Assembly (NCBI GenBank): GCA_030539275.1
Contig: JAUNSK010000028.1
Location: forward strand, 1 to 48,879
Origin: Oscillospiraceae bacterium
GTDB lineage: Bacteria; Bacillota; Clostridia; Oscillospirales; Ruminococcaceae
Reading direction: 5' to 3'
Length of the DNA stretch: 48,879 bases
Below, one piece after another: positions 835 to 48,473 of the stretch; positions within the stretch are counted from its first letter, which is position 1, and every line of letters begins with the position of its first letter. The notes beneath the pieces were generated by a model. It did no database searches. It saw only the letters and a list, made by a program, of their open reading frames with translations, and was not told where the DNA came from. A program made the translations under genes and the position numbers.

Positions 835-2394
835 ATGTCAGAATTAAATAAGGATATTGCCTGTGCACCGTCATCAGACAGTTTTGAGAAGATCATAGCA
901 GATATTGAAACATCAGCAGTTAAAAAAGAGATCTGCTATACAGCGGGGGAGCAGATACTGGCAGCAGTGGTGGCTGTATTTGCTTTTATATTTATAGAGA
1001 CTGCGGTATTCAATCCCGCGGGTTATATAACAAGTGCGTTGTTTATCAGCGGTATTACAGCTCTTATAATCTATCTTAAAAGAAACGGAGCACATTATAA
1101 TGCTCTGCAGATAACTGCAGCAGCTGTTATGTATTTATTCAGCCTGGTTTATACGATCACTGCAGATAATATGATCAAGGCTGTAAATACACTGTTTGAG
1201 TACATAACAGCTTCATATTTTGTATATTCTGCTCTCGGATCCCAGAAAAAAGTGAGCAGATATCTTCCGCTTGAACTGATGAAGTCATTTTTTTCATATC
1301 CGTTTTCAAACTTATTTAAACTTTTCGGTGCGCTTAGCTTCAGTCTGAAAAAAACAAAATGCGGACCTTCTGCAAAACGTGTGGCATTAGGACTGATCCT
1401 TGCAGTGCCTCTTACAATAGTCGTAGCATCACTGCTTATGTCAGCTGACAGTGGAGTGGAAAAAATACTTTCATATGTATCTGAGTATTTCTTTTCAGAC
1501 AACATATGGACAGTGATCTCGCGTCTTATTATTTCTGTTCCGGCAGGCTGCTGGATATTCGGACTTATCTATACCGCTTCACATAACAAGGATATGACCG
1601 GCTCAGCTGATGACGAATATGAAAAATCTCTTGACTCTGTGAGAAAAATCAATAACCTCGTAGTGTATACTGCAGTTTCTCCTGTATGTATTCTGTATGC
1701 TGTTTTCTTTATTTCACAGGCGACATATTTTCTGTCAGCATTTTCAGGCAGCCTTCCTTCATCTTACAGCTACGCTGAATATGCAAGAAGAGGTTTTTTT
1801 GAACTTTTTGCCATAGAAATCATAAATATGTGCATTATTCTGTTTATTAACCTGTGTACTGTAAAGAGCGGAAAGAACAAATCGAAGGCACTGACCTTCT
1901 ACACCGTGATGATATCATTCTTTACACTTGTAATTACAGCAACTGCAATGAGCAAGATGATAATGTACATCAGAAATTACGGGCTTACTCAGAAACGTGT
2001 TTATACGAGCTGGTTTATGCTGCTTACGGCCATTTATTTTATCATGGTGATAATAAAACAGATAAGACCCGGGTTCAATATGATGACAAGTGCAGCCGCT
2101 GTTTTCTGCATTATGTTTGGTATACTTTGTTTTTCAAGACCGGACAGCGTAATTGCAGCGTATAATCTTGAGTATTTTTCAGACAGTATGACATATTATG
2201 ACCTGACTGAGATGAGCGAAATGTCGGATGATGCAGTATGCGTTATTCTTGATGCGAAATACCAGAGCATTGTCAGTTCTATTTTATCTGATGATGAAGA
2301 TGATTTTAAAAGAGATACAGAGAAAAGACTTAACAGCAGCTTTTATGTGAGAACAAATTTATCAGATATATTGATCAGAGAGAAACTGAAATAA
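835..2394 (+). CDS. DUF4173 family polytopic membrane protein
   Basis: The product has 519 residues and roughly a dozen hydrophobic segments, starting with a charged N-terminal tail of about 40 residues and ending with a soluble tail of about 75 residues. Segment spacing and phrases such as the SYAEYARRGFFELFAIEIIN stretch match DUF4173, a family of unknown function whose genes often sit beside DUF2975/HTH pairs. An AAAGGAG ribosome site precedes the ATG at 835, which is 36 bases after the HTH stop, so the three genes are probably one operon. It ends at a strong hairpin terminator. No catalytic motif is visible, and its role is unknown. Confidence 0.8.
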   Translation: MSELNKDIACAPSSDSFEKIIADIETSAVKKEICYTAGEQILAAVVAVFAFIFIETAVFNPAGYITSALFISGITALIIYLKRNGAHYNALQITAAAVMYLFSLVYTITADNMIKAVNTLFEYITASYFVYSALGSQKKVSRYLPLELMKSFFSYPFSNLFKLFGALSFSLKKTKCGPSAKRVALGLILAVPLTIVVASLLMSADSGVEKILSYVSEYFFSDNIWTVISRLIISVPAGCWIFGLIYTASHNKDMTGSADDEYEKSLDSVRKINNLVVYTAVSPVCILYAVFFISQATYFLSAFSGSLPSSYSYAEYARRGFFELFAIEIINMCIILFINLCTVKSGKNKSKALTFYTVMISFFTLVITATAMSKMIMYIRNYGLTQKRVYTSWFMLLTAIYFIMVIIKQIRPGFNMMTSAAAVFCIMFGILCFSRPDSVIAAYNLEYFSDSMTYYDLTEMSEMSDDAVCVILDAKYQSIVSSILSDDEDDFKRDTEKRLNSSFYVRTNLSDILIREKLK

Positions 2395-2441
2395 AAAAAG
2401 ACATTTACGTAAGCATAAAAACTTACGTAAATGTCTTTTTT
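2395..2441. terminator. bidirectional intrinsic terminator
   Basis: A perfect 19-bp stem (2395-2413 with 2422-2440) encloses an 8-base loop and is flanked by A and T runs, so it works on both strands. It lies between the converging DUF4173 gene and the lipoprotein operon. Confidence 0.92.
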
Positions 2442-2461: not shown

Positions 2462-3349
2462 TTACTGATTCATAGATGGATTTGTCATAAATGTGCCTTT
2501 AGAAATACTGTCAAATACTGAACCCTGGCTTATATCTGTCAGTTCCATAACTGATGAATCAAAACGGATCTTGAGGGTAAATGCACCGATCCCTGCGTGA
2601 ATGTTCTCAGCATTAAGGTTAAGCGTTACTGTTTCACCGCGGTTTGCACATGCATTTGAGAGATTTGCGTATGTATCATAGTCATCCGGTGAAGGATTGT
2701 CATCATATGCTGAGCCTGAACCTACACTGATTATTCCGCCGTCAAGGTTGGAATACTTTTTTTTGCTGTCATACTTGACGAAACTGCCGGTATCTGAATC
2801 ATCTCCGTGAAGCAGCTCAATATTGTAATCACCGTCAGGTGCGTCTTCTTTTATTTTAAATGTAACAGCGGCGAGCTGTCCTGCACCTACAGGCAAAGTA
2901 GCATCTTTTGAGTCACACAGCCAGGTCATTTTCAGCGTCTGCAGTACAGGATCCCTGTGTTCAGGTTCTGCTGAAGGTGCATCGGTCTGTGGTTTCTGGG
3001 TCTGTGTTTCGTCAATAGGTTTTTTAGTTTGCTCCGTAATTTTGTTTTCTGATATTACTATCTCAGTAACATCTATTCCATCTGCATCCGTTACAGTAAT
3101 TCCGTTTTTATCAGTAACACGGACTATTGAGGTTATGGCATTTACAGGTAAAGTCGTAGTATCAGCTGTGTCTGAAGTTTCAGCGGATGTCTTCGATGAC
3201 GCAGCTGAAGTTTCAGAGGTAATTGTATAATCGCCTGATGTAGTTTCTTTCTGAGAATTCTGAGGTATATTTTCCCTGCATGATGTAGCGTTCAAAATGA
3301 TAAAAGCAGCTGCCGTGATACAGACAGAATAAATACTTTTATTTTTCAT
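2462..3349 (-). CDS. lipoprotein with apparently circularly permuted cohesin-like domain (copy 3)
   Basis: This 295-residue protein begins with a lipoprotein signal ending in ATSC, so Cys24 is the likely lipidated residue. A Ser/Thr/Glu-rich linker (25-70) leads to a short repeat of the form VTDxxGxxVTDxxGxxVTE (77-96) and a Pro/Gln/Thr linker. Residues about 135-210 look like the C-terminal half of a cohesin (MTWLCDS, then AAVTFKIKEDAPDGDYNIEL, ending GGIISVG). Residues about 227-295 look like the N-terminal half (NRGETVTLNLNAENIHAGIG, then FDSSVMELTDISQGSVFD). The halves are therefore in reverse order, and the protein stops in the loop where the missing half would begin. A strong terminator follows at once, so the end is real. 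It is the last gene of a three-gene operon. Binding to dockerins is inferred from the fold only. Confidence 0.75.
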   Translation of the reverse strand: MKNKSIYSVCITAAAFIILNATSCRENIPQNSQKETTSGDYTITSETSAASSKTSAETSDTADTTTLPVNAITSIVRVTDKNGITVTDADGIDVTEIVISENKITEQTKKPIDETQTQKPQTDAPSAEPEHRDPVLQTLKMTWLCDSKDATLPVGAGQLAAVTFKIKEDAPDGDYNIELLHGDDSDTGSFVKYDSKKKYSNLDGGIISVGSGSAYDDNPSPDDYDTYANLSNACANRGETVTLNLNAENIHAGIGAFTLKIRFDSSVMELTDISQGSVFDSISKGTFMTNPSMNQ

Positions 3350-3392
3350 TATAAATAAGCTCCTAAGTTAATTAAAGAATTATGACTGTTTA

Positions 3393-4316
3393 TCAGCCTG
3401 TCAGGAAATCACCATTACCGGCTAACACTGTTCCTGCAGATATTTTTTCAATCGTCATAACGTCCTGGTTATAGCAAACCCATGTATTGAAAGCAAATAT
3501 ACCTGTGTTTCCTTTAATACTTACAGAAAGTGTAACAGTATCGCCGGGATTTCCGGCTGCGTTTGAAAAATCAACATGAGTACCACCGCTGTTGGAATCA
3601 TTCTTAGCTTTTGGTGAAGTGGCACCTACTGATATTATGCCGGGATCGGATAATATCGTAAGTTCCTTCGGAGTTTCCATATCACCATTGCAGAATGTGC
3701 CGTATGGACTGTCGCCGTCCTGCGGGTTTTTAAGCGATACACTATAATCACCGGAAGGTGCGTTATCATTTATTTTAAAAGTAACTGTAAATAGTTCTCC
3801 GTTGTCCATCAACTCACTGACTCTTCCGTTTGAATCTGTTCCCTGGCTGAAGTCATTTAACCAGACTACAGCTTTATATGAACCGGATGAATCAACCAGA
3901 TCTGTCTGTTCCTGCTTTTGAGTACCATCTGTATCTGCAGGGTCATTGCCTTTGACTGTAGTGACAGAGTTTGTCTGAGCTGCCTGAATATTTGGTTTTG
4001 CAGGTTTTCCGTCTGCCTGTGTTATTATGTTTTCCGACTTATCCATGATGACAGCCTGTGTAACCGGGTTTCCCTTTTCGTCAAGTACGTTTTCACCACT
4101 TGCATCTGTTACATTTATGACAGTTATTTTATTTCCGTCAAGATCGGTAACAGGAAGTGAAGTAACTGTGCCATCAGATGCTGCATTTTCAGATAAATCT
4201 GTCTGTAAAGCAGCACTGTTGTCAGAGTTTTGTCCGATATTATCTTTTTTGCATGATGAAAAACCTGAAACAGCCAGGCAAAAAACAGCTGCCAGGATTA
4301 TGATTTTTTTGTACAT
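3393..4316 (-). CDS. lipoprotein with apparently circularly permuted cohesin-like domain (copy 2)
   Basis: This paralogue has 307 residues. The signal peptide ends in FSSC (Cys22) and is followed by a Ser/Asn-rich linker and VTDxxG-type repeats (about 56-105). As in its downstream neighbour, the C-terminal cohesin half comes first (about 146-231: VVWLND, FTVTFKINDNAPSGDYSVSL, DPGIISVG). The N-terminal half comes last (about 246-307: FSNAAGNPGDTVTLSVSIKG, then DVMTIEKISAGTVL). The chain ends at GDFLTG, the point where a normal cohesin would continue into the VVWLND strand. Both halves keep recognisable core strands, so the domain could close on itself as a permutant. It lies 95 bases after copy 1 and 43 bases before copy 3. 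Confidence 0.75.
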   Translation of the reverse strand: MYKKIIILAAVFCLAVSGFSSCKKDNIGQNSDNSAALQTDLSENAASDGTVTSLPVTDLDGNKITVINVTDASGENVLDEKGNPVTQAVIMDKSENIITQADGKPAKPNIQAAQTNSVTTVKGNDPADTDGTQKQEQTDLVDSSGSYKAVVWLNDFSQGTDSNGRVSELMDNGELFTVTFKINDNAPSGDYSVSLKNPQDGDSPYGTFCNGDMETPKELTILSDPGIISVGATSPKAKNDSNSGGTHVDFSNAAGNPGDTVTLSVSIKGNTGIFAFNTWVCYNQDVMTIEKISAGTVLAGNGDFLTG

Positions 4317-4411: not shown

Positions 4412-5314
4412 TTATTTTACCACTATACTTCCGTTGATATATTTTGGTGTTGACTCAATGATAGACTTGTCATCAGCGATTGAGTTGCATAACACCTTTC
4501 CGTCAGCAACGCTGTCAAATTCCAGCGGATATTCTCCGGCAGGAACGGAATCCTTGACTTTAAGAGTAACTGTAGCGTATGTATTGTCCTCTGTTACCTG
4601 AGCTAATGACTGATCATAATAGAAGAAGACAAGAGTATCGATATCTGACTTGTTAGGCTTGTTGTATACAGAAATTGACATATTGTTTTTCTGATCTGAC
4701 ATTTTGTAGTCTGGATCTGACGGATCACCGCCCTTGTAATCAATAATATCAAAATAACGTTTATCGATATCAAGCCATGCTATCAGACCAGAGTAGCCGG
4801 TATTTTTAGTTACTTTGATCTGGAATGTTACTTCCTGTCCTGCGCTTGCTTCGATCTTCTGATCAATACTCAGAGTAGGACCGTCAGCTGACGTCTGGAT
4901 ATTCTGGGCAGCATCCTTCTGAGTTTCTTTAGTGGTTACAATTACGCCTCCGGCGCTTGTTGTAACAGTCGGCAGGTTTGGCTTTACATTGTTGCCCTTT
5001 GTATCAGTTATTACATTGTTGTCCTTATCAACGATGGCAAGCTGAGTAGATGCAGCGCCGCCTGACTGTGTTACAGGTTTTTTGTCGGTATCAGTTACTG
5101 TTACGGTAACGATCTTGCTTCCATCAGCATCCTTTTCAGGTATGGCTGCCTCTGTTGATGCTGCTGAATTATCGTTTTCAGAAGTTACTGATGTATCTTG
5201 TGTAACAACAACTGTGCTGTTGTCTTTTATTTTGTCGTTTTTACAAGCCGTCATACTGAATGAAAGTAAACAAATCAGTGATGCTGCTAATATTTTTGAT
5301 TGAGTCTTTTTCAT
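4412..5314 (-). CDS. lipoprotein with cohesin-like domain in normal order (copy 1)
   Basis: This 300-residue protein starts the operon. Its signal peptide ends in MTAC, giving Cys24 as the lipid anchor. A Ser/Thr-rich linker contains VTVTDTDxxPVTQ and IVDKDNNVITDTKGN repeats (about 70-110) like those of its two neighbours. Residues about 146-300 form one complete cohesin-like domain in the usual order: SIDQKIEASAGQEVTFQIKV, then YFDIIDYKGG, a middle segment, TYATVTLKVKDSVPAGEYPL and a final NGSIVVK strand. It therefore serves as the in-window reference for the two permuted copies. A surface-anchored receptor for dockerin proteins is plausible, but the fit to known cohesin types was judged by eye. 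Confidence 0.75.
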   Translation of the reverse strand: MKKTQSKILAASLICLLSFSMTACKNDKIKDNSTVVVTQDTSVTSENDNSAASTEAAIPEKDADGSKIVTVTVTDTDKKPVTQSGGAASTQLAIVDKDNNVITDTKGNNVKPNLPTVTTSAGGVIVTTKETQKDAAQNIQTSADGPTLSIDQKIEASAGQEVTFQIKVTKNTGYSGLIAWLDIDKRYFDIIDYKGGDPSDPDYKMSDQKNNMSISVYNKPNKSDIDTLVFFYYDQSLAQVTEDNTYATVTLKVKDSVPAGEYPLEFDSVADGKVLCNSIADDKSIIESTPKYINGSIVVK

Positions 5315-5386: not shown

Positions 5387-5415
5387 ATTTTATATCATGC
5401 AGTTGGTATTGTCAA
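5387..5415 (-). promoter_or_regulatory. sigma-A promoter of the lipoprotein operon
   Basis: On the minus strand TTGACA (5410-5415) and TAAAAT (5387-5392) are separated by 17 bp. The lipoprotein operon therefore has its own promoter even though leuA lies upstream on the same strand. Confidence 0.75.
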
Positions 5416-9546: not shown

Positions 9547-12500
9547 ATGAGTATAAAGGGGAAATACAAAAAGCTGTTGTCATTATTGGTCGTGCTGATT
9601 TTAATATTTGTGCCTGACGATGCCTGCTGCATGGCAGCCGGCGATGAGGAAAAGATCCTAAAAGTCGCATTTTATCAGCTTGACGGTTTTTTTGAATATG
9701 ACATTTCCCATAATCCGACGGGGTATGGTGTTGAACTGCTTGGTAAGATATCCGAGTATACAGGAATAAAATTTGAGTACGTTGACACTCCATCCTGGGA
9801 ACAGACAAAAGATATGCTGCTTGATGGAAAAGCAGATATCAGAATGCCCGGAAATATGCCGGCAGTTGCATCTGATACACTTGATTATTCAAGTCAGAGT
9901 ATTATGGACACGTTTCATTCACTCATGACACTGTCGCAGCGCAGTGACCTTTATTATGAGGATATGGATACTATAAGGACTCTGAAGATAGCAGTATCAG
10001 AAAATCTTTATATTAAGCAGTCAATATCGGATTTTATAAATGAAAACGGTATTCCATATAAAAATCTGCTTATTTATGATAACTATGAGCAGGTGCGTAA
10101 AGCTCTTGAGAATGGAGAGGCTGATGCAATAATATCAAATGTCATGGATATGACAGATGATATGAAGATACTTATGAGTTTTAATTCTGTTTCGAATTAT
10201 ATTAGCATGCTTAAAGGAAATCCGGATCTGAATACGATCAATGAAGGCATATGCAGGTTAAGGATAGATGATCCTGAATTTATTCCGAAGCTTTATAAAA
10301 AATGGTATCCTGACCGTGCTGCTGTACCGTTTACAAAAGAAGAAACTCAGTACATTGAAGACCACCCGACAATAACAGTCGGTAATCTTCACAACAGATA
10401 TCCGTTTTCAAGTCTTGATTACGAAACAGGCGAATTATCAGGAATAAATGAGGATATTCTTGATCTTATATCCGGTTACAGCGGACTGAATTTCAATAGT
10501 ATAGCTTTTGAACTTAAAGAGCAGCCTGTATCAGCTCTTAAAGCAGGAAAATGTGATATTGCTGCAGGCATACTTGAAACTGCTCAGTTTCATTCAGACC
10601 GTGATATTATTGTATCTGATCCGTTCTGTACCAGTTCCATTTCGATTGTCAAGCCTAAGAATTATATTTATTTACCGGATGAGCCGCAGACTGTTGCCGT
10701 TAAAACTGCCTTCCAGGGCATAGCTGATTATATAGGGACGAAGTATCCGCAGTATGAAATATTAAAATTTGATACAGACGAAGAATGTCTGGATGCACTG
10801 GTTAATTCTCAGGCTGATATACTGCTGCAGAATGTTTATGTTACGAATTATCTCCTGCAGAAACCAAAGTATGAAACACTTGAGATCCTTCCAACATCAT
10901 TTTTTACTGAAAAAAATTGTTTTGCCGTAAGATCATCTGATCCGGATTCACAGCTGCTTATATCTATTCTCAACAAATCAATAAAGAAGATCACTGAAGA
11001 TGAAACAGATGCTGTAATACTTAAAAACACTACTGCAAGACCATACAAGTTCACACTTGAGGATACATATTACAGATACCGCTATGCTATTATGATAATC
11101 AGCAGTCTTCTTATCATTTTATTATTTGTGCTGATATCAAACAATATTATGAGACGCAGACATGTTAAAAAAATGGAGGCCAAGAACATCCAGCTTGCTG
11201 AGGTGTACCGACAGACTCAGGTCGCATTAAGATCAAAGAGTGACTTTCTTGCAAGAATGTCACATGAGATAAGAACACCGATGAATGCCATAATCGGTAT
11301 TACAGAACTGGCCTATGATCATACAGACAGCCCGGAAAAGATCTGTGATGATCTTGATAAGATAGCTCTTTCATCAAGGCTGCTTTTATCTGTAATTAAT
11401 GATGTACTCGACATGTCATCTATAGAGGCCGGAAAAATGAAGATAGCCTGCACACTTTTTGACTTCAAGCAGCTGATAACGTCAATAACGACAATCTTTT
11501 ATGCTCAGTGCCGTAATAAAAAGGTTGACTTTGAGGTAAAGATCATTTCACCGATAGACGAACATCTTATGGGCGATCCTCTGAGACTTAATCAGATACT
11601 TATAAATCTTCTGTCAAACTCGGTCAAGTTTACTGATGAAGGCAATATTGTACTGACAATAGAGCAGAAGGCGTTAAAAGACAATAAAGTCTATATCAGA
11701 TTCATGGTATCCGACTCAGGATGCGGAATGAGTGAAGACATGCTTAAAAGAATTTTCCATCCATTTGAACAGGAAAACTCGCAGACGGCTATGGAACACG
11801 GAGGAAGCGGCCTGGGGCTTTCAATAGTGCGCAATCTTGTAACGCTGATGGATGGTGCAGTAAATGTCGAAAGCAAAAAGGGAACAGGTACAACGTTTAC
11901 AGTCGATCTGCCGTTCGGCGTTTCTGATACTGATAAGGCAGCTGTCCCCGGTTTTGAAAAACTCAGAATACTGGTAATTGACGACGAGCATAATGCACGT
12001 AATTATGCATCAGCAGTTCTGCAAAGAATAGGGGTGCGTTTTACATGTTCAGATTCAGCATCTGAAGCTCTCAGTATTATGAATGAAGCAGCAGCTGCGG
12101 ATGATCCGTATAATGTCTGTCTGGTTGACTGGAAGATGCCGCAGATAAACGGCATTGAGATCACAAGACAGATAAGGGCACATTATGATAAAAATAAGGT
12201 CGTAATAATTGCTGCGGCATATGATTACTCAGAAATTGATGAAAATACAAAAAACAATAGTGCAGACCTGTTTATAACAAAACCGCTGTTCCAGTCAACT
12301 CTGTTTGATATTCTGATGTCTCTTTCAGGCGGAAGACTTGTAAAAAAATCTGATAAAAACTCAAAGTTTGATTTTGGCGGAAAAAAGGTACTGCTGGCTG
12401 AGGACAATCAGATGAACCGCATTGTGGCCACAGGATTACTCGAAAAGGGGAATATAGTCTGTGATACAGCTGAAAACGGACTTGAGGCAGTAAATATGTT

Positions 12501-12789
12501 CGAATCATCGCCACCGGGAACATATTCGGCTATACTGATGGATATTCAGATGCCTGTAATGAACGGTTATGATGCAGTTAAAAAAATACGTTCATCATCT
12601 CATCCGCAGTCAAAGTCAGTGCCGGTAATAGCCATGACGGCAAATGCACTTGCCGAGGATGTTTCCAATTCACTGTCATGCGGGATGAATGCACATGTAT
12701 CAAAACCAATCGAGATAAATAACCTGTTTGAAACTCTGGAACGTATATGGTCGGAAGAAGGGGATAGTTATGGACGCACATATAATTAA
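9547..12789 (+). CDS. BvgS-like hybrid histidine kinase with two solute-binding sensor domains
   Basis: The 1080-residue membrane protein has a signal/anchor segment (about 8-24) and two tandem family-3 solute-binding domains outside the cell (about 35-255 and 270-490). One transmembrane helix follows (about 510-533). Inside are HisKA with MSHEIRTPMNAIIG (phospho-His near 571), HATPase_c with DSGCGM and GGSGLGLS near 753, and two receiver domains. REC1 has VIDDE and CLVDWKMP (Asp near 860); REC2 has LAEDN and LMDIQMP (Asp near 998). It probably senses an amino acid or similar small ligand and starts a phosphorelay. Unlike BvgS it has no C-terminal HPt; the next gene supplies one, overlapping its end by 20 bases. 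Confidence 0.92.
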   Translation: MSIKGKYKKLLSLLVVLILIFVPDDACCMAAGDEEKILKVAFYQLDGFFEYDISHNPTGYGVELLGKISEYTGIKFEYVDTPSWEQTKDMLLDGKADIRMPGNMPAVASDTLDYSSQSIMDTFHSLMTLSQRSDLYYEDMDTIRTLKIAVSENLYIKQSISDFINENGIPYKNLLIYDNYEQVRKALENGEADAIISNVMDMTDDMKILMSFNSVSNYISMLKGNPDLNTINEGICRLRIDDPEFIPKLYKKWYPDRAAVPFTKEETQYIEDHPTITVGNLHNRYPFSSLDYETGELSGINEDILDLISGYSGLNFNSIAFELKEQPVSALKAGKCDIAAGILETAQFHSDRDIIVSDPFCTSSISIVKPKNYIYLPDEPQTVAVKTAFQGIADYIGTKYPQYEILKFDTDEECLDALVNSQADILLQNVYVTNYLLQKPKYETLEILPTSFFTEKNCFAVRSSDPDSQLLISILNKSIKKITEDETDAVILKNTTARPYKFTLEDTYYRYRYAIMIISSLLIILLFVLISNNIMRRRHVKKMEAKNIQLAEVYRQTQVALRSKSDFLARMSHEIRTPMNAIIGITELAYDHTDSPEKICDDLDKIALSSRLLLSVINDVLDMSSIEAGKMKIACTLFDFKQLITSITTIFYAQCRNKKVDFEVKIISPIDEHLMGDPLRLNQILINLLSNSVKFTDEGNIVLTIEQKALKDNKVYIRFMVSDSGCGMSEDMLKRIFHPFEQENSQTAMEHGGSGLGLSIVRNLVTLMDGAVNVESKKGTGTTFTVDLPFGVSDTDKAAVPGFEKLRILVIDDEHNARNYASAVLQRIGVRFTCSDSASEALSIMNEAAAADDPYNVCLVDWKMPQINGIEITRQIRAHYDKNKVVIIAAAYDYSEIDENTKNNSADLFITKPLFQSTLFDILMSLSGGRLVKKSDKNSKFDFGGKKVLLAEDNQMNRIVATGLLEKGNIVCDTAENGLEAVNMFESSPPGTYSAILMDIQMPVMNGYDAVKKIRSSSHPQSKSVPVIAMTANALAEDVSNSLSCGMNAHVSKPIEINNLFETLERIWSEEGDSYGRTYN

Positions 12790-13138
12790 AAAGTATGGTA
12801 TAGATTATGATTCCGGTGTAAGACGTTTTATGGGGGACGTTGAACTCTATGAAACAGTCCTGACGGCATTTTTAAAAGATAAAATTCTTGATTATGCCAG
12901 GGCCGCATATCAGGAAAAAGAATATGAAAAACTTTTCGCGTTAGCTCATGAGATAAAAGGCTCCAGCAGTAATGCTGATATGTACGAATTGTATGCAGCC
13001 TCCTGTATTCTTGTTGAACTGCTGAGAAACGGTGAATATGATGAAGAAAAGATTACTCAGGCTTTCATCAACTTTGAAACAGCATACAACAGGGCCAGGA
13101 CAGGCATTATATCCGCGCAGGGAGGCGATCCATTATGA
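12770..13138 (+). CDS. stand-alone HPt phosphotransfer protein
   Basis: The 122-residue protein has the four-helix HPt pattern with LAHEIKGSSSNADMYEL. His60 is the expected phosphate carrier. The frame is open from 12728, but the ATG at 12770 is preferred: it follows a GAAGGGGAT ribosome site and matches the natural N-terminus of a single HPt domain. It overlaps the kinase end and shares an ATGA junction with the following gene, so all three are translated together. It likely moves phosphate from the kinase's receiver to the receiver of the giant protein downstream. Confidence 0.88.
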   Translation: MDAHIIKKYGIDYDSGVRRFMGDVELYETVLTAFLKDKILDYARAAYQEKEYEKLFALAHEIKGSSSNADMYELYAASCILVELLRNGEYDEEKITQAFINFETAYNRARTGIISAQGGDPL

Positions 13139-16100
13139 ACATCTCAGAAAACCGCAGTAAGATACTTGTTGTTGATGATTCATTTGCAAACAGAATGTTA
13201 TTATATAAAATATTCAGTACTGATTATGATGTCGAAATGGCCCAGAACGGACTTGAGGCCCTGACAAAGCTCAGGGGTACTGCAGGATTTTCAGCAGTGA
13301 TCCTTGATATCATCATGCCTGAGCTTGATGGGTACGGAGTTCTCAGAGCTATGAAGGAAGAAAAGAATCTGAGCAATATTCCTGTTGTAATTGTAACTGC
13401 CAGTGATGATATTGACAGTCAGCTGAAGGCTCTTGACCTCGGTGCTGTTGATGTTCTTATCAAACCTCTCAATTATCAGATCGTACTTCACAGAGTAAGA
13501 AATATTCTTTTGAGAAATGCAGCGATCAAGCTTGAAGAACAGAACAGGAGCTATCAGAAACTGCTGCATCAGTCCGAAATTGATGATGTGTCGGGCATAT
13601 ATAACAGCAAGGCATTCTGCAGAAAAGCCGGACAGCTTATCAGGGGAAACCCGGATATTAAGTATGTTATTGTCCGCTGGGACATAGACAGATTTAAAGT
13701 GTTTAATGATATCTATGGAATAAAAGAAGGTGACAGACTTCTTGCCCGTATAGGTTCATTATATCAGAACAATGAAGAGAACCAAAGAGTTTGCGGCCGA
13801 TGGGAAGCAGATCATTTTGTTATCTGCATGCAGTATGAAAAGTTTCAGACGTCAGAAATCGAAACATCCCTCAGAAATCTGTTTTCATCATATAATACTG
13901 ATTTTGAATTTATTGTAAGATTCGGTATTTACGTTGTGGATGAACCTGACCTTGATGTCGGACTGATGTGCGACCGGGCATTGCTGGCACTGCGTTCTAT
14001 AAAGGGAAGCTATGCAAAAAGAAGTGAGTATTATAATGATTCCATGAGAGCGGCTCTGATCGAAGAACAGCAGATCATCAGCGAGATGAAAAGTGCTCTG
14101 GATGACGGACAGTTTATTGTATATTTTCAGCCTCAGTATAATTATGCAACAAAACAGCTCCACGGGGCGGAGGCACTGGTAAGATGGAAGCATCCTGTAA
14201 GAGGACTTATCTCACCGGCTAAGTTTATTCCTGTTTTCGAACAAAACGGTTTTATAACGCAGGTGGATATTTATATGTGGGAACAGGTCTGCAGATATCA
14301 GAGAAGCTGGTTAGACAGAGGAATAAAAGCAGTTCCGGTTTCCGTAAACGTTTCACGTATTGATATCTATAATCACAGACTCTGCATGATCATTACACAG
14401 CTGCTTGAAAAATATAACCTTGACGTTTCACTTGTACGACTGGAAATTACGGAATCGGCCTATATGGATGACGCACGTCAGCTCATCAGCGTTGTTGACA
14501 GACTCAGGAGCTATGGATTTTACGTTGAAATGGATGACTTCGGAAGCGGATATTCATCACTTAACACACTTAAGGAAGTCCCTGTGGACATGCTCAAGCT
14601 GGATATGAAGTTTATGGATCATGACAGCAGTGATGACAAGAGCGGAAGTATTCTCAGCAGTGTAGTACGAATGGCACATATGATAAAACTGCCGGTAATT
14701 GCTGAAGGCGTGGAAACAAAAAAACAGGCTGACTATCTCAAGTCCATCGGATGCTTCTATATGCAGGGATATTACTTTGCAAAGCCAATGCCTGCAGATC
14801 AATATGAACGCGTACTGTGTGAGACCAGTCAGGAACTGAGTGTTGACAAGAGATTTAAAGATGATATTGCCGATGCCCAGCAGTTTCTGAATGCATCGAC
14901 ACAGGCAACGCTGCTGTTCAACAGCTTTGTAGGCGGCGCAGCTATTGTTGAATATAACGGAACAACGGTAGAAGCACTGAGAATGAATGACAAGTACTAT
15001 GAGGTAACAGGGCTTACTTATGAGGAGTATGAGAAATACGGTGATGTTTTTTTCAAGGGGCTTGATAAAGAGAATAAGAAAAGGCTTATTGAAGTCCTTG
15101 AACTTGCAATCACGAGCCGTGAAGAGAGTGCATGTGAGCTATGCTGTGAAACTCTTTCTGTATCTGAGAATAAAAAGTGGTTAAATGTCAGGGTACGTCT
15201 GCTCGCAGTTAATGATGAAAGATATATTTTCTATGTTGCCATTGATGACATTTCACAGAGAATGAATCTGATAGCATCAAATAAAAAGCTTACAGAGAAG
15301 CTGAGTGCAGTAATGGATAATGTCCCCGGAGGTATTATAGACTTTGAGATAAGCGACAAGATGACAATTACTTACTTTAACGACTCTGCTGCGGAGATGT
15401 TCGGATACTCAAAAGATGAATATGAGCTTTACTTTACAGCATCTCCTTTGAACGTCATACATAAGGATGACATGGAATCCTGCAGGAAATTAATTGATAA
15501 GATCGTTTCAGGTGTCACACACGAGTTATCCTTCAGATACCGTCACAAATGTAAGAACGGACAATGGAAATGGGTTCAGCTGACAGGCAGAATCGTAAGA
15601 AAAGACAAGGGAACTGTTTATATCAGCAGTATTATGCTTGATATTGATTCACAGATAAAGAGTGAAGAGAATGAGGCAGCACAGGCAGCAGAGATCAGAC
15701 GTCAGAAGTTTGTTCTCCAGACGCTGTATGATTCTGTACCATGCGGAATTACACAGTACAAATTTCAGGGTGAAAAGATGTCTATTGCAAGTTTTAACGA
15801 TGCCTCCTGGCGAATACTGGGTTATTCAAGCAGGCAGCATTTTATTGAAGAGATACATAAGAAAAGCAAATTCAAGGATATTCATCCGAAAGATCTGGGT
15901 AATATGATGACCCAGATAAAGAAACTGATCAGTTCACACACTAACAGGAGTGTAGATCTCGAACACAGGATCATACGTGTAGACGGTTCGATAAGATGGG
16001 TTCACACAGTTATTCAGAAGGTTTATTACAATAATGACAATGAGTATATTCAGACTGTTTTTCAGGATATTACTGAATTTAAAAAGGAAAGCATCAAGCT

Positions 16101-19100
16101 CATGAGCGATTCTCTTCTGAGTGTATATGATGAGGTGTATGAGTGTGATGTTGATCAGGATATCTGTATTCTGTGTTCATCACGAAAAAAACAGGTACAG
16201 CGTGAAAGCAGGATCGTAAGGCTGAGCGAATGTCTGGATTTCTTCAGAAATAATATAGTTCTTCCTGATGACACAAAGGTTTTACAGGATTTTACGGAGC
16301 TTATGAGGCTTCAGAATAAAACACTCAATAAAACGCAGGAATTCAGATACATCGGTTCGGAAAATGAAGTAAAGTGGGCATCAGTGGCTGTTATTTATGC
16401 CGGAGGCTCCACATATCTGATATGTCAGAAGGATATTACTGAGCAAAAGCATACCGAGGAGCTGGCAGTTAAAAATGCAGTCAGCTATGAACAAAATAAA
16501 ATACTTGAGGCAGAGCATGAGAGAAACAGCCTGTTTATCAGTAAAACAGGCATTGTTCAGTTTGAATATCTGTGCGCTGCAGATACTATGCAGATCGTAA
16601 GGACAGGGTCATCCGGCAGAACCGATGTTTGTGTAACAGAAAATTATACAAAGAATCTGCTGGAAAACAAGGCAGTCAGTTTATGTGACAGACAACTTGT
16701 TCAGGATGCTTTTCTTGCTGCCAGCGCCAGATGCATGTGCCGCACTCTGGAGTACAGGTCTGACAGATTTGACAATGGATATATTTTATGCAGGCTTCAG
16801 CTTTGTTCTGTTTCTGAAAGTAAAGGCAAACCGGACAAAATCATTGGCCATATTACAGATATACACAATGAGGTCAGACAAAAAGTGCTTGCAGATAAGT
16901 TAAGAAATATATCAGAGTCATCATCCCTGATGACAGGAGATGATTATGACAGTACAGCCATTGACGATGTGATAAGCTTCCTGAGTGATGCAAATGACAA
17001 GGAAAAGGCAGTATCTGATATACTTGAATCAATAGGCAGACAACTTAATGTAAGCCGTGTTTATATCATTGAAAGTGATGATGACGGAGTGCACTGCAAA
17101 AATACATTTGAATGGTGCAATGAAGGTATAACGCCGCAGATCAGTAATCTGCAGAATTTTGAGTATCCTGACGAAATTCATGAACAGGTTAAGGAATATC
17201 TTGATAATAACGGTGTTCTCAATTGTGCTGATATAGAAGAACTGCCTGAATGGTACAGGCAGGTACTGAGTGATCAGGGTGTAAGATCTGTACTGATGTG
17301 TGCGCTAAAGGACGGTGAAGGATACTGCGGATATATAGGATTTGATGAGTGCAGTGAAAAGCGTGAATGGTCAGCCAAGCAGGTCCACATACTTATGAGT
17401 GTTTCACAGATCATAGGTTTCTATCTTAACCGCCGCCGTTTCAGATTTGTAGTAACAGAGAAACTTATCTCAGACTTTGAAAAAAGCCCGGCCTATATTT
17501 ACATCGTAGATCCGGATACCTTTGAAGTGCTGTATATGAATCCTGCCGTAGCGGGTGAAATTCATACCACGCTTAAAAATGCTGAGTGCTTCAGGCAGAT
17601 ATTAAACGACAAACCATGCAGTAAGTGTCCGATAAAAATGTTTAAGTCAAACGGATTTCCGGTACCTGTTACAGTCAGGGTCAATTCGAGGGTCTGCATA
17701 ATGGTTGCGTTTGCATCGATCTGGAATGGCAAAAAAGTTTTTGTCGTATACGGTACTGACCAGAGAAGTTTCTTTGATGACCCTTGTGGCCAGCGAATTA
17801 TAGAATATCAGCAGGATCTTGTTAAGTACAGTCATACATTAAGCTGTTTATATGATGAAATATCTTTAGTGGATTTTGAAGCAGACAAATTTATTACGAT
17901 CAATACCAGACATGAGCCTGCCGGACAGGCAGTAACTATCAGCGAGGCAGTTGCGTTTTGGAGTTCAAAAATAGGCGATGAGAAGCAAAGAGAAGAATTT
18001 ATTTCGCTTGTTGACCTCAATCAGATCCAGAAATCATTTTCCCAGCATAAAGCACCTATTCTTGAATACAGAGTAAAGGTAAGTGATAACAGTGAACGCT
18101 GGATATCAAGTACAATGTTCCAGATAAGTCCTGTAAAATATCTTTGCTGCAATAAGGATATTACAGCGCATAAAAATGCAGAGAAAATGAAAGTTGATCT
18201 TCTGATACTCAAATCACAGAAGGCAGCCCAGGACAAGTACAGGGTAGTCGTTGATCAGACAAATACGGCTGTGTTCGAAATGAACTATGAGACAAAAGAA
18301 TTTACATGTTCAGATCTGTATTATAAATATGAAGTAAGCCGCAGACATCACGGCCAGATGCCGGATCACAGCCAGGACAGGACGCTTGTTCATAAGGATG
18401 ATCAGCATCTGCTTGACACTTTCCTTAATGATATCAGAAGCGGAGAGGATTATGCCGATACAGTCATTCGTATCAAGATGACAGACGGAACATTCAGATG
18501 GACCAGAATAGCCGGTACATTTATAAAGAATTCTGAAAATAAAATTATTAAGGCAATAGGTACATTTACGGATGTAGAAGAAGAGATCCGTGCAAAGCTT
18601 CAGCTTGAACAGACTAATGAACGAATGAAAAGAATAATAGACAATATCCCTGCAGGTGTAGCTATACTTGAGATACGTGATCAGGTCTATCCTATATTTG
18701 TGAGTGACAAAACCTGTCAGATGTTCGGGTTTACACGTCAGGAGTATAATATCAGAATTGCCAATGGTGAGCCGGTAAACTATTTTCCGCCCAGGGAGGA
18801 TACCGGAGGGAAACTTCCGGGTGAGATGAATGAAGATAATCCTGTGGTGTTTGATAAAATTCATGCAAGGAAAAAGAACTCAGAGCAGTTCTGGCTCAGA
18901 GCCATATGCAGTTTTGAAAAAAACAAGAGTGGTGTTATGAGATGCTATTGTATACTTCACGATATTACTGATGAGATAAAGCGTCAGCAGAATGACAGAT
19001 GGCTGGAGGAAAGATACAGAATACTAAGTGAATGCAGTGATATAATGACATTTGATTACTCACCGCAGGATGATACGATGAGGCGATCTGTAAAATTACC

Positions 19101-19878
19101 TGATGGTACGATAAATGATGAGATCCATAATAAATATCTGGAAAAATTCTCTCTTAATAAACGAATTTCATCAGAAAGCAAGGAAGTATTCAATACAGCA
19201 CTTCTTCAGGCATGTTCAGCTGCTGTAAATGGTACACATGATTTTATGGCAGACTTCGGCGCCGGGTACAGATGGTACAGAGCAAAGTATGTCAGTCTTG
19301 CTGATGATAACGGTGAGGTATACAGGGTTGTCGGCCGTATTGATGATATCAATGATATAATGATAAAAAAAGATCTGATGACAAGTGACTGTGATATTGA
19401 CAGGATCACAGGACTCAGAAAAAAGAAATCCGCATGTGAACTCATCAGAATGACAATTGCAGAAAAACCTGCTGACAGATTTGATGCTGTGTTGTTTATT
19501 GATATTGATAATTTCAGCCAGATAAATAAAAGCATAGGAACCTACGAGTCAGATATGATACTGAGCCGTATCGGCGAAATCCTCAAAAGCTGCTTCAGAA
19601 GCGGTGATATTGTTTCTCACTTCGAAAGTGATGAATTTATTGCTTACATGCCGTCGGTAGGAAACAGTTATCCGGCAGAAGTGAAGGCCAGAAACATCAT
19701 ACGCAAGATAAATTCGGTTGTCATGAAAAACGGAGATCCTGTATGTACGAGTATAGGAATTACAGGAATAATTGGTCCGGACCAAAGCTATGATGAAATA
19801 ATAAGACATGCATACAGCGCTCTTAAAATATCTAAGAAAAACGGCAAAAATACTTATACACTTTATAAAGAAAAATAA
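13135..19878 (+). CDS. giant REC-GGDEF-EAL-multiPAS-GAF-GGDEF signalling protein
   Basis: At 2247 residues this is the longest gene in the window, and it has no transmembrane segment. Domains in order: REC (1-125, phospho-Asp near 61 in ILDIIMP), GGDEF-like (about 145-300), EAL (about 315-565), some eight to nine PAS or PAS-like segments (about 586-1255 and 1445-2075) around a GAF domain (about 1277-1436), and a second GGDEF-like domain (about 2080-2247). The first GGDEF motif is replaced by GRWEADHF (near 222) and the last by HFESDEF (near 2163), so neither is likely to make c-di-GMP. The EAL motifs are intact: EALVRW near 344, EITES, MDDFGSGYSS near 466, AEGVET near 523 and QGYYFAKP. The likely activity is c-di-GMP hydrolysis controlled by phosphorylation and by ligands of the PAS/GAF domains. 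The PAS count is approximate. Confidence 0.88.
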   Translation: MNISENRSKILVVDDSFANRMLLYKIFSTDYDVEMAQNGLEALTKLRGTAGFSAVILDIIMPELDGYGVLRAMKEEKNLSNIPVVIVTASDDIDSQLKALDLGAVDVLIKPLNYQIVLHRVRNILLRNAAIKLEEQNRSYQKLLHQSEIDDVSGIYNSKAFCRKAGQLIRGNPDIKYVIVRWDIDRFKVFNDIYGIKEGDRLLARIGSLYQNNEENQRVCGRWEADHFVICMQYEKFQTSEIETSLRNLFSSYNTDFEFIVRFGIYVVDEPDLDVGLMCDRALLALRSIKGSYAKRSEYYNDSMRAALIEEQQIISEMKSALDDGQFIVYFQPQYNYATKQLHGAEALVRWKHPVRGLISPAKFIPVFEQNGFITQVDIYMWEQVCRYQRSWLDRGIKAVPVSVNVSRIDIYNHRLCMIITQLLEKYNLDVSLVRLEITESAYMDDARQLISVVDRLRSYGFYVEMDDFGSGYSSLNTLKEVPVDMLKLDMKFMDHDSSDDKSGSILSSVVRMAHMIKLPVIAEGVETKKQADYLKSIGCFYMQGYYFAKPMPADQYERVLCETSQELSVDKRFKDDIADAQQFLNASTQATLLFNSFVGGAAIVEYNGTTVEALRMNDKYYEVTGLTYEEYEKYGDVFFKGLDKENKKRLIEVLELAITSREESACELCCETLSVSENKKWLNVRVRLLAVNDERYIFYVAIDDISQRMNLIASNKKLTEKLSAVMDNVPGGIIDFEISDKMTITYFNDSAAEMFGYSKDEYELYFTASPLNVIHKDDMESCRKLIDKIVSGVTHELSFRYRHKCKNGQWKWVQLTGRIVRKDKGTVYISSIMLDIDSQIKSEENEAAQAAEIRRQKFVLQTLYDSVPCGITQYKFQGEKMSIASFNDASWRILGYSSRQHFIEEIHKKSKFKDIHPKDLGNMMTQIKKLISSHTNRSVDLEHRIIRVDGSIRWVHTVIQKVYYNNDNEYIQTVFQDITEFKKESIKLMSDSLLSVYDEVYECDVDQDICILCSSRKKQVQRESRIVRLSECLDFFRNNIVLPDDTKVLQDFTELMRLQNKTLNKTQEFRYIGSENEVKWASVAVIYAGGSTYLICQKDITEQKHTEELAVKNAVSYEQNKILEAEHERNSLFISKTGIVQFEYLCAADTMQIVRTGSSGRTDVCVTENYTKNLLENKAVSLCDRQLVQDAFLAASARCMCRTLEYRSDRFDNGYILCRLQLCSVSESKGKPDKIIGHITDIHNEVRQKVLADKLRNISESSSLMTGDDYDSTAIDDVISFLSDANDKEKAVSDILESIGRQLNVSRVYIIESDDDGVHCKNTFEWCNEGITPQISNLQNFEYPDEIHEQVKEYLDNNGVLNCADIEELPEWYRQVLSDQGVRSVLMCALKDGEGYCGYIGFDECSEKREWSAKQVHILMSVSQIIGFYLNRRRFRFVVTEKLISDFEKSPAYIYIVDPDTFEVLYMNPAVAGEIHTTLKNAECFRQILNDKPCSKCPIKMFKSNGFPVPVTVRVNSRVCIMVAFASIWNGKKVFVVYGTDQRSFFDDPCGQRIIEYQQDLVKYSHTLSCLYDEISLVDFEADKFITINTRHEPAGQAVTISEAVAFWSSKIGDEKQREEFISLVDLNQIQKSFSQHKAPILEYRVKVSDNSERWISSTMFQISPVKYLCCNKDITAHKNAEKMKVDLLILKSQKAAQDKYRVVVDQTNTAVFEMNYETKEFTCSDLYYKYEVSRRHHGQMPDHSQDRTLVHKDDQHLLDTFLNDIRSGEDYADTVIRIKMTDGTFRWTRIAGTFIKNSENKIIKAIGTFTDVEEEIRAKLQLEQTNERMKRIIDNIPAGVAILEIRDQVYPIFVSDKTCQMFGFTRQEYNIRIANGEPVNYFPPREDTGGKLPGEMNEDNPVVFDKIHARKKNSEQFWLRAICSFEKNKSGVMRCYCILHDITDEIKRQQNDRWLEERYRILSECSDIMTFDYSPQDDTMRRSVKLPDGTINDEIHNKYLEKFSLNKRISSESKEVFNTALLQACSAAVNGTHDFMADFGAGYRWYRAKYVSLADDNGEVYRVVGRIDDINDIMIKKDLMTSDCDIDRITGLRKKKSACELIRMTIAEKPADRFDAVLFIDIDNFSQINKSIGTYESDMILSRIGEILKSCFRSGDIVSHFESDEFIAYMPSVGNSYPAEVKARNIIRKINSVVMKNGDPVCTSIGITGIIGPDQSYDEIIRHAYSALKISKKNGKNTYTLYKEK

Positions 19879-47963: not shown

Positions 47964-48473
47964 ATGAAAAAGTTTACAAAACAGATATCAGCACTTCTGG
48001 CACTGGCAGCTGTCGGCTCAGTTACAGTGGTTCATGCTTCCACGCTTGGCAATGGAATCGCTGAGCCTGGAAATTACGATTATCAGCCGGATTCGTATGA
48101 AGATACACCTATGGCCGGAGTAGCGCCATATACTCCTACGGTCGGCACGTTTGTAGAAACAACGCCAGAACAGACTACAACAACGTCAATAGGGACTTGG
48201 GTTGAAACAACACCGGAACAGGAAACAACTACAACAAGGATGACTACGTTAGCAGGAGCAGTTGGACCTGGGGAATATGACGCTATACCCGGGGATGTGT
48301 ACTATGATATGGTAGTCGACATGACAGATCTGACAACACTTTCTTTATGGCTTCTTGGTGATGTAAGTTATGGCTCAGTACATGACTGGTCAGCGGGAGA
48401 TGTCAATGGGGACGGTGACATTAACATTGCGGATCTTGCACAGCTTAAGTATATACTGATGAATCCGGAATAA
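47964..48473 (+). CDS. small secreted dockerin protein
   Basis: The 169-residue protein has a signal peptide (about 1-25, ending HAS), a proline- and tyrosine-rich segment (PGNYDYQPDSYEDTP) and two Thr-rich repeats of the form VGTFVETTPEQTTTT / IGTWVETTPEQETTTT. The C-terminal dockerin (about 108-167) has a first calcium repeat that is poor (GDVYYDMVVDMTDLTTLSL) and a second that is canonical (GDVNGDGDINIADLAQLKYI). There is no catalytic domain. It may compete for or cap cohesin sites, or be a scaffold accessory. AGGAGGAG precedes the ATG. The 182 bases after it hold AT-rich inverted repeats but no clear terminator. Confidence 0.85.
   Translation: MKKFTKQISALLALAAVGSVTVVHASTLGNGIAEPGNYDYQPDSYEDTPMAGVAPYTPTVGTFVETTPEQTTTTSIGTWVETTPEQETTTTRMTTLAGAVGPGEYDAIPGDVYYDMVVDMTDLTTLSLWLLGDVSYGSVHDWSAGDVNGDGDINIADLAQLKYILMNPE

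Follow-up and report, generated by a model that had tools for sequence, protein, structure and literature searches.

Cohesins, protein-binding modules that have been studied in depth and have found use in protein engineering, adopt a nine-stranded jelly-roll sandwich. According to the available text of PMC5429695, their strands form two sheets, 9-1-2-7-4 and 8-3-6-5, with strands 1 and 9 running parallel. The dockerin sits on sheet 8-3-6-5, and the connection between strands 4 and 5 is variable, including a helix in some cohesins that is absent in ScaA and ScaB3. In R. flavefaciens, the anchoring scaffoldin ScaE carries a sortase signal, and each strain has one to three single-cohesin proteins without a dockerin (PMC4081043, in the part available). 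A standalone cohesin has been proposed as a molecular shuttle (cited in PMC12484212, in the part available). R. albus is described as having 58-90 dockerin proteins but at most one cohesin, an adaptor, a situation termed puzzling (PMC4081043, same part); this lone cohesin also appears in the accessible text of PMC4300822, where cohesin-like domains are reported outside cellulosomes as well.

The window (the whole 48,879-nucleotide stretch analysed) holds three lipoprotein genes that follow each other along the minus strand in the order copy 1, copy 2 and copy 3, as seen in the ORF listing. Copies 2 and 3 almost certainly end in a circularly permuted cohesin module, in which the C-half comes first, followed by a linker and then by the N-half. 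The cluster is laid out as follows:

5387-5415, minus strand: promoter-like site TTGACA-17-TAAAAT upstream of copy 1 (11/12 matches, from a consensus scan only)
4412-5314, minus strand: copy 1, sister lipoprotein of 300 aa with its cohesin in normal order (half-models: N-half before C-half)
3393-4316, minus strand: copy 2, lipoprotein of 307 aa with a C-terminal circularly permuted cohesin (intact ORF; Pfam Cohesin; AF2)
3627-3893, minus strand: copy 2, cohesin C-half (strands 5-9), leading the module, with approximate boundaries (half-model 69.5 bits; strands within domain residues 4-89)
3582-3626, minus strand: copy 2 linker between the halves, 15-16 aa (16 aa by motif; AF2 model without strand or helix here)
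3396-3581, minus strand: copy 2, cohesin N-half (strands 1-4), closing the module (half-model 82.9 bits; Pfam Cohesin profile 5-56)
2462-3349, minus strand: copy 3, lipoprotein of 295 aa with a C-terminal circularly permuted cohesin (intact ORF; Pfam Cohesin; AF2)
2723-2953, minus strand: copy 3, cohesin C-half (strands 5-9), leading the module, with approximate boundaries (half-model 82.8 bits)
2675-2722, minus strand: copy 3 linker from the old C-end (strand 9) to the old N-end (strand 1), 16-17 aa (17 aa by motif; AF2 model without strand or helix here)
2465-2674, minus strand: copy 3, cohesin N-half (strands 1-4), closing the module (half-model 76.8 bits; Pfam Cohesin profile 7-59)
2394-2441, minus strand: terminator-like hairpin after copy 3 (20-pair stem and T tail)

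On inspection, all three copies show a lipobox, a stalk of low complexity in which VTD motifs occur, and, at the C-terminal end, a domain of about 160 aa. Copies 2 and 3 start with an apparent signal peptide and lipobox Cys, the latter (C24 of copy 3) being invariant in 19/19 aligned proteins. The promoter-like site before copy 1 and the hairpin downstream of copy 3 make it probable that the cluster is transcribed as a single unit, the background being 13 promoter sites found versus 9.6 expected in the consensus scan and nine terminator-like sites found versus 1.8 expected in the region. The chain of copies 2 and 3 stops after the N-half, leaving no room for a sortase sorting signal, and no Pfam domain other than Cohesin was found above cut-off in either protein. 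Scaffoldins have several cohesins, or a cohesin together with a dockerin, an X-module or a sortase signal; copies 2 and 3 have one permuted cohesin each. On the same contig, a 169-aa protein (47964-48473, plus strand) contains a type I dockerin at residues 109-163, which makes it a local candidate partner for the cohesins encoded there. The window also encodes a 2247-aa signalling protein (13135-19878, plus strand) with response-regulator receiver, EAL, several PAS, GAF and GGDEF domains, and near it a 1080-aa sensor kinase (9547-12789) with solute-binding, kinase and receiver domains.

The earlier note, made from the sequence alone, had described two lipoproteins with circularly permuted cohesin-like domains and, upstream, a sister gene with the same parts in normal order. 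Both descriptions hold. The two ORFs are intact and a single rotation gives an end-to-end cohesin match, while in the upstream gene the half-models read N before C. The motifs follow the order given there, with MTWLCDS or VVWLND, VTFKI, APxGDY and GIISVG preceding GxTVTL and then SSVMELTDISQG or QDVMTIEKISAG. Pfam Cohesin (PF00963, curated cut-off 24.1) matches copy 3 with E 5.4e-10 and 40.0 bits, and copy 2 with E 7e-6 and 26.7 bits. Each match is in two stretches, the better of which lies at the C-terminal end of the protein even though it covers the beginning of the profile (7-59 in copy 3, 5-56 in copy 2). Copies 2 and 3 are therefore similar to PF00963 without having its contiguous N-half and C-half. 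All 21 collected permuted domains (set A2) match this profile at E ≤ 1, the best at 3e-17, and no NCBIfam family matched more than 5/19 proteins. Half-models were built from permuted rows and applied to permuted and normal groups that had been drawn up beforehand. The C-half precedes the N-half in 41/41 permuted proteins, and the N-half precedes the C-half in 28/28 normal cohesins. Since the order is swapped in all 41, these domains constitute a permuted variant of PF00963 and not ordinary members.

The position of the cut was located by a scan of 52 rotations, in which a profile of the 21 permuted domains was compared with a profile of nine copy-1-type domains. In the order as found, the score is 66.6 over 67 columns. 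It reaches its maximum, 113.6 over 143 columns and spanning 2-159 of 160, when the cut falls in the linker, and declines gradually as the cut moves away from it. One rotation thus restores full-length alignment to the parent family, as in a natural permutant. Rotation gains less against three other cohesins encoded in the same genome (from 53.8 over 61 columns to 62.8 over 148), and the copy-1 family, when rotated, scores at most 23.3 against other cohesins of its own genome.

Among solved cohesins, PDB chains 1aoh, 3kcp, 5lxv and 4ums are matched. In natural order, a 21-row profile aligns with cohesins in reversed pieces: 1aoh_A is matched in two pieces (60.7 bits), and in 3kcp_A query 88-143 corresponds to chain 8-64 and query 17-79 to chain 93-153. 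After re-ordering, a 15-row profile aligns with 1aoh_A in one piece, 8-143 against 5-147 of 147, with 68.9 bits and E 3.3e-18. With 11 domains in natural order, the profile scores 57.6 bits for 1aoh, and its best stretch covers only part of the domain in each of the 24 chains listed. Re-ordering adds only modestly to the bits but makes the best matches fully contiguous, the row sets (21, 11 and 15) being different; in 3l8q_A and some others only the N-half is aligned even after re-ordering. The autonomous cohesin chains 4n2o and 4wkz are matched by the natural-order profile in two stretches, the better ones at model positions 62-116 and 63-116, and a profile of the linker alone did not recover a natural-order match across the linker to “autonomous cohesin” chains. 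Chance resemblance to cohesins was also considered, and is ruled out by the 21/21 Pfam matches, the rotation scan and the one-piece match to 1aoh. The permuted domains thus share both half-domains with the cohesins of scaffoldins and match them end to end after rotation, but their halves are swapped, their ends lie between strands 4 and 5, where the cut is placed, and a new linker of 13-17 aa leads from strand 9 to strand 1.

The earlier note had spoken of two genes in one genome. This is correct for the window's genome but too narrow, as the permuted form is a conserved family found in at least nine genera. Copy 2 is matched in 15/149 genomes and copy 3 in 13/149 (E ≤ 1e-5, the window's own genome included). 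At the same threshold, the permuted profile matches 89/396 genomes of the family, and a near full-length permuted form is present in 44/396, from nine genera and again counting the window's genome. A genome counts as a carrier here if nearly the full length of the profile is matched, with 80 bits or more, in a frame of some 200-400 aa. In one genus (g28), 13/16 genomes have the permuted gene, including 7/7 good-quality ones, and a tenth genus (G174) has a more divergent permuted copy. In long frames, weaker spanning matches (about 35-63 bits) arise as an artefact where cohesins stand in tandem and a C-half is followed by the next N-half; the artefact was seen for loci L118 and L106, inferred for the other long frames, and excluded from the permuted count. 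Weak spanning matches in short frames (for example G174:C3, 214 aa, and G273:C35, 337 aa) were left out of this count as well. Outside the family, no genome among 295 sampled from the order was proved to have a permuted cohesin (E ≤ 1e-15). The only one from another family to match encodes a protein that reads as tandem normal cohesins. No match was found when copy 2 was compared with plasmids.

Could these be truncated or decayed tandem-cohesin genes that have lost their outer halves and make no working domain? Tandem-cohesin genes do exist in the genus and the order, and permutations classically arise when a two-module gene loses its outer halves. However, homologues running on into a full second domain, which the earlier note had named as the mark of truncation, are absent: 34/34 homologues, examined at 30 loci out of the wider carrier set, end 0-21 aa after the N-half, and the form is spread over nine genera. 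The dN/dS ratio is 0.12-0.33 for five between-genome permuted pairs (three of them among the same three genomes) and 0.53 for the sixth, a recent tandem pair. Truncation or pseudogene status is rejected on the common end point and these ratios, and decay is hardly credible. The genes are intact and conserved without truncations, as those of a natural permutant would be. Some permuted lipoprotein genes have been duplicated in tandem, in G010 (L064, 7315-9417), where the two domains differ by a dS of 0.10, and in G268 (L144, 3870-5876), where two 290-aa proteins have at least their first 32 residues in common.

Structure prediction, which the earlier note had proposed for both domains, gives one compact domain per copy and no pair of unrelated half-folds. 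With an input alignment of 9 sequences, taken from the window and three named contigs, the best AlphaFold2 (AF2) models have a pLDDT of 86.7 and a pTM of 0.84 for copy 2, and 86.3 and 0.83 for copy 3; the remaining models are weaker, with mean pLDDT down to 78.0 and 72.7, respectively. The domains are nearly all-beta, and the strand order fits 5-6-7-8-9-1-2-3-4, cohesin numbers being assigned by order alone. In the copy 3 domain, the C-half strands are at 4-13, 23-34, 41-49, 55-60, 65-71 and 73-77. Copies 2 and 3 are thus predicted to fold as a closed single domain. Since strands 1 and 9 are parallel in cohesins, such a closed permutant needs a linker running back across the sheet, and the variable 4-5 connection makes that loop a plausible site for new ends. 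The linker is 13-17 aa long in 35/41 permuted proteins, the 35 being those parsed by motif; of the other six, five lacked a motif match and one was wrongly parsed as zero. A Foldseek search with the copy 2 model yielded nothing from the PDB at E ≤ 0.001, and the best 50 of 761 matches include no cohesin; this search is sequential and is expected to miss a permutant, and the miss is no positive evidence for permutation either.

The two halves might instead pair between molecules, the C-half of one completing the N-half of another to build dimers or chains. Intermolecular pairing is conceivable, since the C-half, linker, N-half order also occurs between the tandem modules of a 2353-aa frame. It is nonetheless improbable: the AF2 monomers are compact with high pTM, the linker has the near-constant length that closure in cis would need, and 10/44 carriers have a single permuted-profile match in all, so that no partner copy is needed, a homodimer being conceivable.

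The 2353-aa frame encodes a scaffoldin of G010 (L118, 885-7500) in which copy-1-type cohesins are mixed with a second cohesin type. Its cohesins resemble copy 1 (195-200 bits), and copy 1 may be a lipid-anchored relative of these modules. Copy 1 itself scores 252 bits against profile A8; Pfam gives no Cohesin match for it as a protein, and 25.8 bits in the genome search. Copy-1-type cohesins were found in this genus alone, in 6/396 genomes at E ≤ 1e-12. The C-half, linker, N-half unit found between neighbouring modules of tandem cohesins such as those of L118 provides a ready source for a permuted gene. The number of events is another matter. A domain tree, from which nine near-duplicate rows were dropped, shows no single permuted clade and needs six order changes, and in an earlier tree with all 69 rows the permuted rows were not grouped either. 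In AU tests, p-AU is 0.048 for all permuted domains as one clade, 0.069 for permuted domains with copy 1, and 0.18 for the permuted domains of this genus with copy 1. The trees establish neither a single permutation event nor its direction. In their light copy 1 may be the parent of the permuted form, a descendant that was rotated back, or a cohesin unrelated to it.

The surroundings of the permuted gene are partly conserved. It has leuA within 2 kb in the window (with copy 1 in between) and in G015, G268, G065, G154, G185 and G260, a neighbourhood that spans five genera in all. In seven other loci of the genus (L058-L061 and L064-L066), the cluster sits between hydF and gapA. A 180-aa membrane protein (MKNISYRVALGGI...) is encoded beside the permuted gene of G154 and beside the truncated copy of G241 (L132, L129 and L130); it also occurs in the G260 stretch, 54% identical, and is a further conserved synteny of the permuted gene.

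A link with dockerins appears when genomes are compared. The window's genome has 144 dockerin matches at E ≤ 0.001, one of them within the window. Dockerins were then counted in 80 relatives, made up of 44 carriers (the 43 found above besides the window's genome, and G006) and 36 non-carriers. Matches at E ≤ 1e-5 were found in 44/44 carriers, with numbers from 28 to at least 69, the scoring cap, and in 8/36 non-carriers, with seven at most; two of the 36 (G258 and G271) have weak ordinary-cohesin matches to the permuted profile. Among 45 further genomes with weaker profile matches (G258 and G271 included), 42 have dockerins, and four reach at least 28: G003 (63), G174 (46), G183 (61) and G226 (57). 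No permuted match was found by the permuted-profile search in G183, G226 and the fragmented G003, dockerin-rich as they are. The sole exception in the other direction among the genomes counted is G241, with a contig-truncated permuted gene and 19 dockerins; otherwise the permuted form is confined there to dockerin-rich genomes. These counts cover 123 relatives out of 396, and descent confounds the link with dockerin number.

The permuted cohesin fold might bind something else, such as polysaccharide, peptidoglycan or another lipoprotein, its dockerin-rich hosts being due to shared descent. The dockerin-rich G183 and G226, which lack a permuted match, speak for such a ligand, and so do the neighbours leuA, hydF and gapA, which are no cellulosome genes. 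Three observations make it rather unlikely. The difference in dockerin number between the carriers and non-carriers tested is sharp, and the re-ordered domain aligns end to end with cellulosomal cohesins. In addition, G065 and G275 have 37 and 65 dockerin matches, and their only Pfam cohesins are the permuted protein and one cohesin-dockerin adaptor. These two belong to a set of 18 carriers examined for cohesins, of which four (G065, G037, G275 and G154) give two matches each to Pfam Cohesin, one being the permuted protein, and the other 14 have 5-23. As PF00963 is reported to undercount ruminococcal cohesins (PMC11557425, in the text available), “only two cohesins” is a lower bound. Even so, the two-cohesin carriers show the same pattern as R. 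albus, with many dockerins and hardly any cohesins. A piece of R. albus plasmid has matches in 22/30 genomes of genus g152, the longest about 75% identical, and this for genus g152 only.

The explanation that we consider likely as a whole is a lipid-anchored permuted cohesin acting as a dockerin receptor at the membrane. The chain would run from strand 5 through strand 9, cross back by the linker of 13-17 residues, and continue with strands 1-4, and the two halves of each chain would combine in cis as a single cohesin-like beta-sandwich. The protein would be anchored to the membrane by its lipidated Cys, on the outer face and at the end of a flexible stalk. Dockerin binding, itself probable, would take place on sheet 8-3-6-5, with enzymes or cohesin-dockerin adaptors as partners, and the cellulosomal parts would then be held at the cell surface or handed on during assembly. 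Since strand 5, where the stalk would enter in place of strand 1, is the edge of the dockerin-binding sheet, the domain would hang by a different edge and its orientation at the membrane would be altered. Whether this is the main anchoring role in cohesin-poor species is a more tentative matter. It is possible, if doubtful, that in dockerin-rich, cohesin-poor ruminococci of the R. albus pattern the missing surface receptor for dockerin proteins is a permuted lipid-anchored cohesin, which would replace the scaffoldin alone or with one cohesin-dockerin adaptor. Such a receptor would be overlooked, because domain searches see its half-modules in the wrong order.

Functionally, the closest described system is ScaE, since this protein and, as we infer, the permuted lipoproteins both fix cellulosome parts to the cell envelope. 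ScaE does so by a sortase signal, and the available text mentions no permutation of it; copies 2 and 3 instead have a lipobox and a permuted module. The shuttle cohesin, which we take to be CohG of R. flavefaciens, is not to our knowledge permuted or lipid-anchored. As it is presented in the accessible text, it is autonomous and may carry dockerin proteins to the surface, as proposed here for the permuted lipoproteins. The single-cohesin proteins of R. flavefaciens, compared by their published description only and in the part available, have one cohesin beside a region of unknown function, as in copies 2 and 3, but no permutation is mentioned; some of them could be copy-1-like or even permuted. 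Searches of open-licence PubMed Central texts brought up no natural circularly permuted cohesin, and the main texts available for PMC4081043, PMC5301203, PMC11557425 and PMC12484212, supplements aside, contain no word beginning with “permut”. Individual permuted proteins may already be listed in supplements as odd or single cohesins.

A conserved permutant indicates that the cohesin fold tolerates, and evolution keeps, new ends in the 4-5 loop, a property of use in design. Cohesin censuses made with ordinary profiles may miss or discard permuted proteins. The permuted family also makes it testable how dockerin-rich, cohesin-poor species such as R. albus (PMC4081043, in the part available) hold their enzymes at the surface. 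If the proposal is true, Ruminococcus-related fibre-digesting gut bacteria would have an overlooked way to hold plant-degrading enzymes at their surface.
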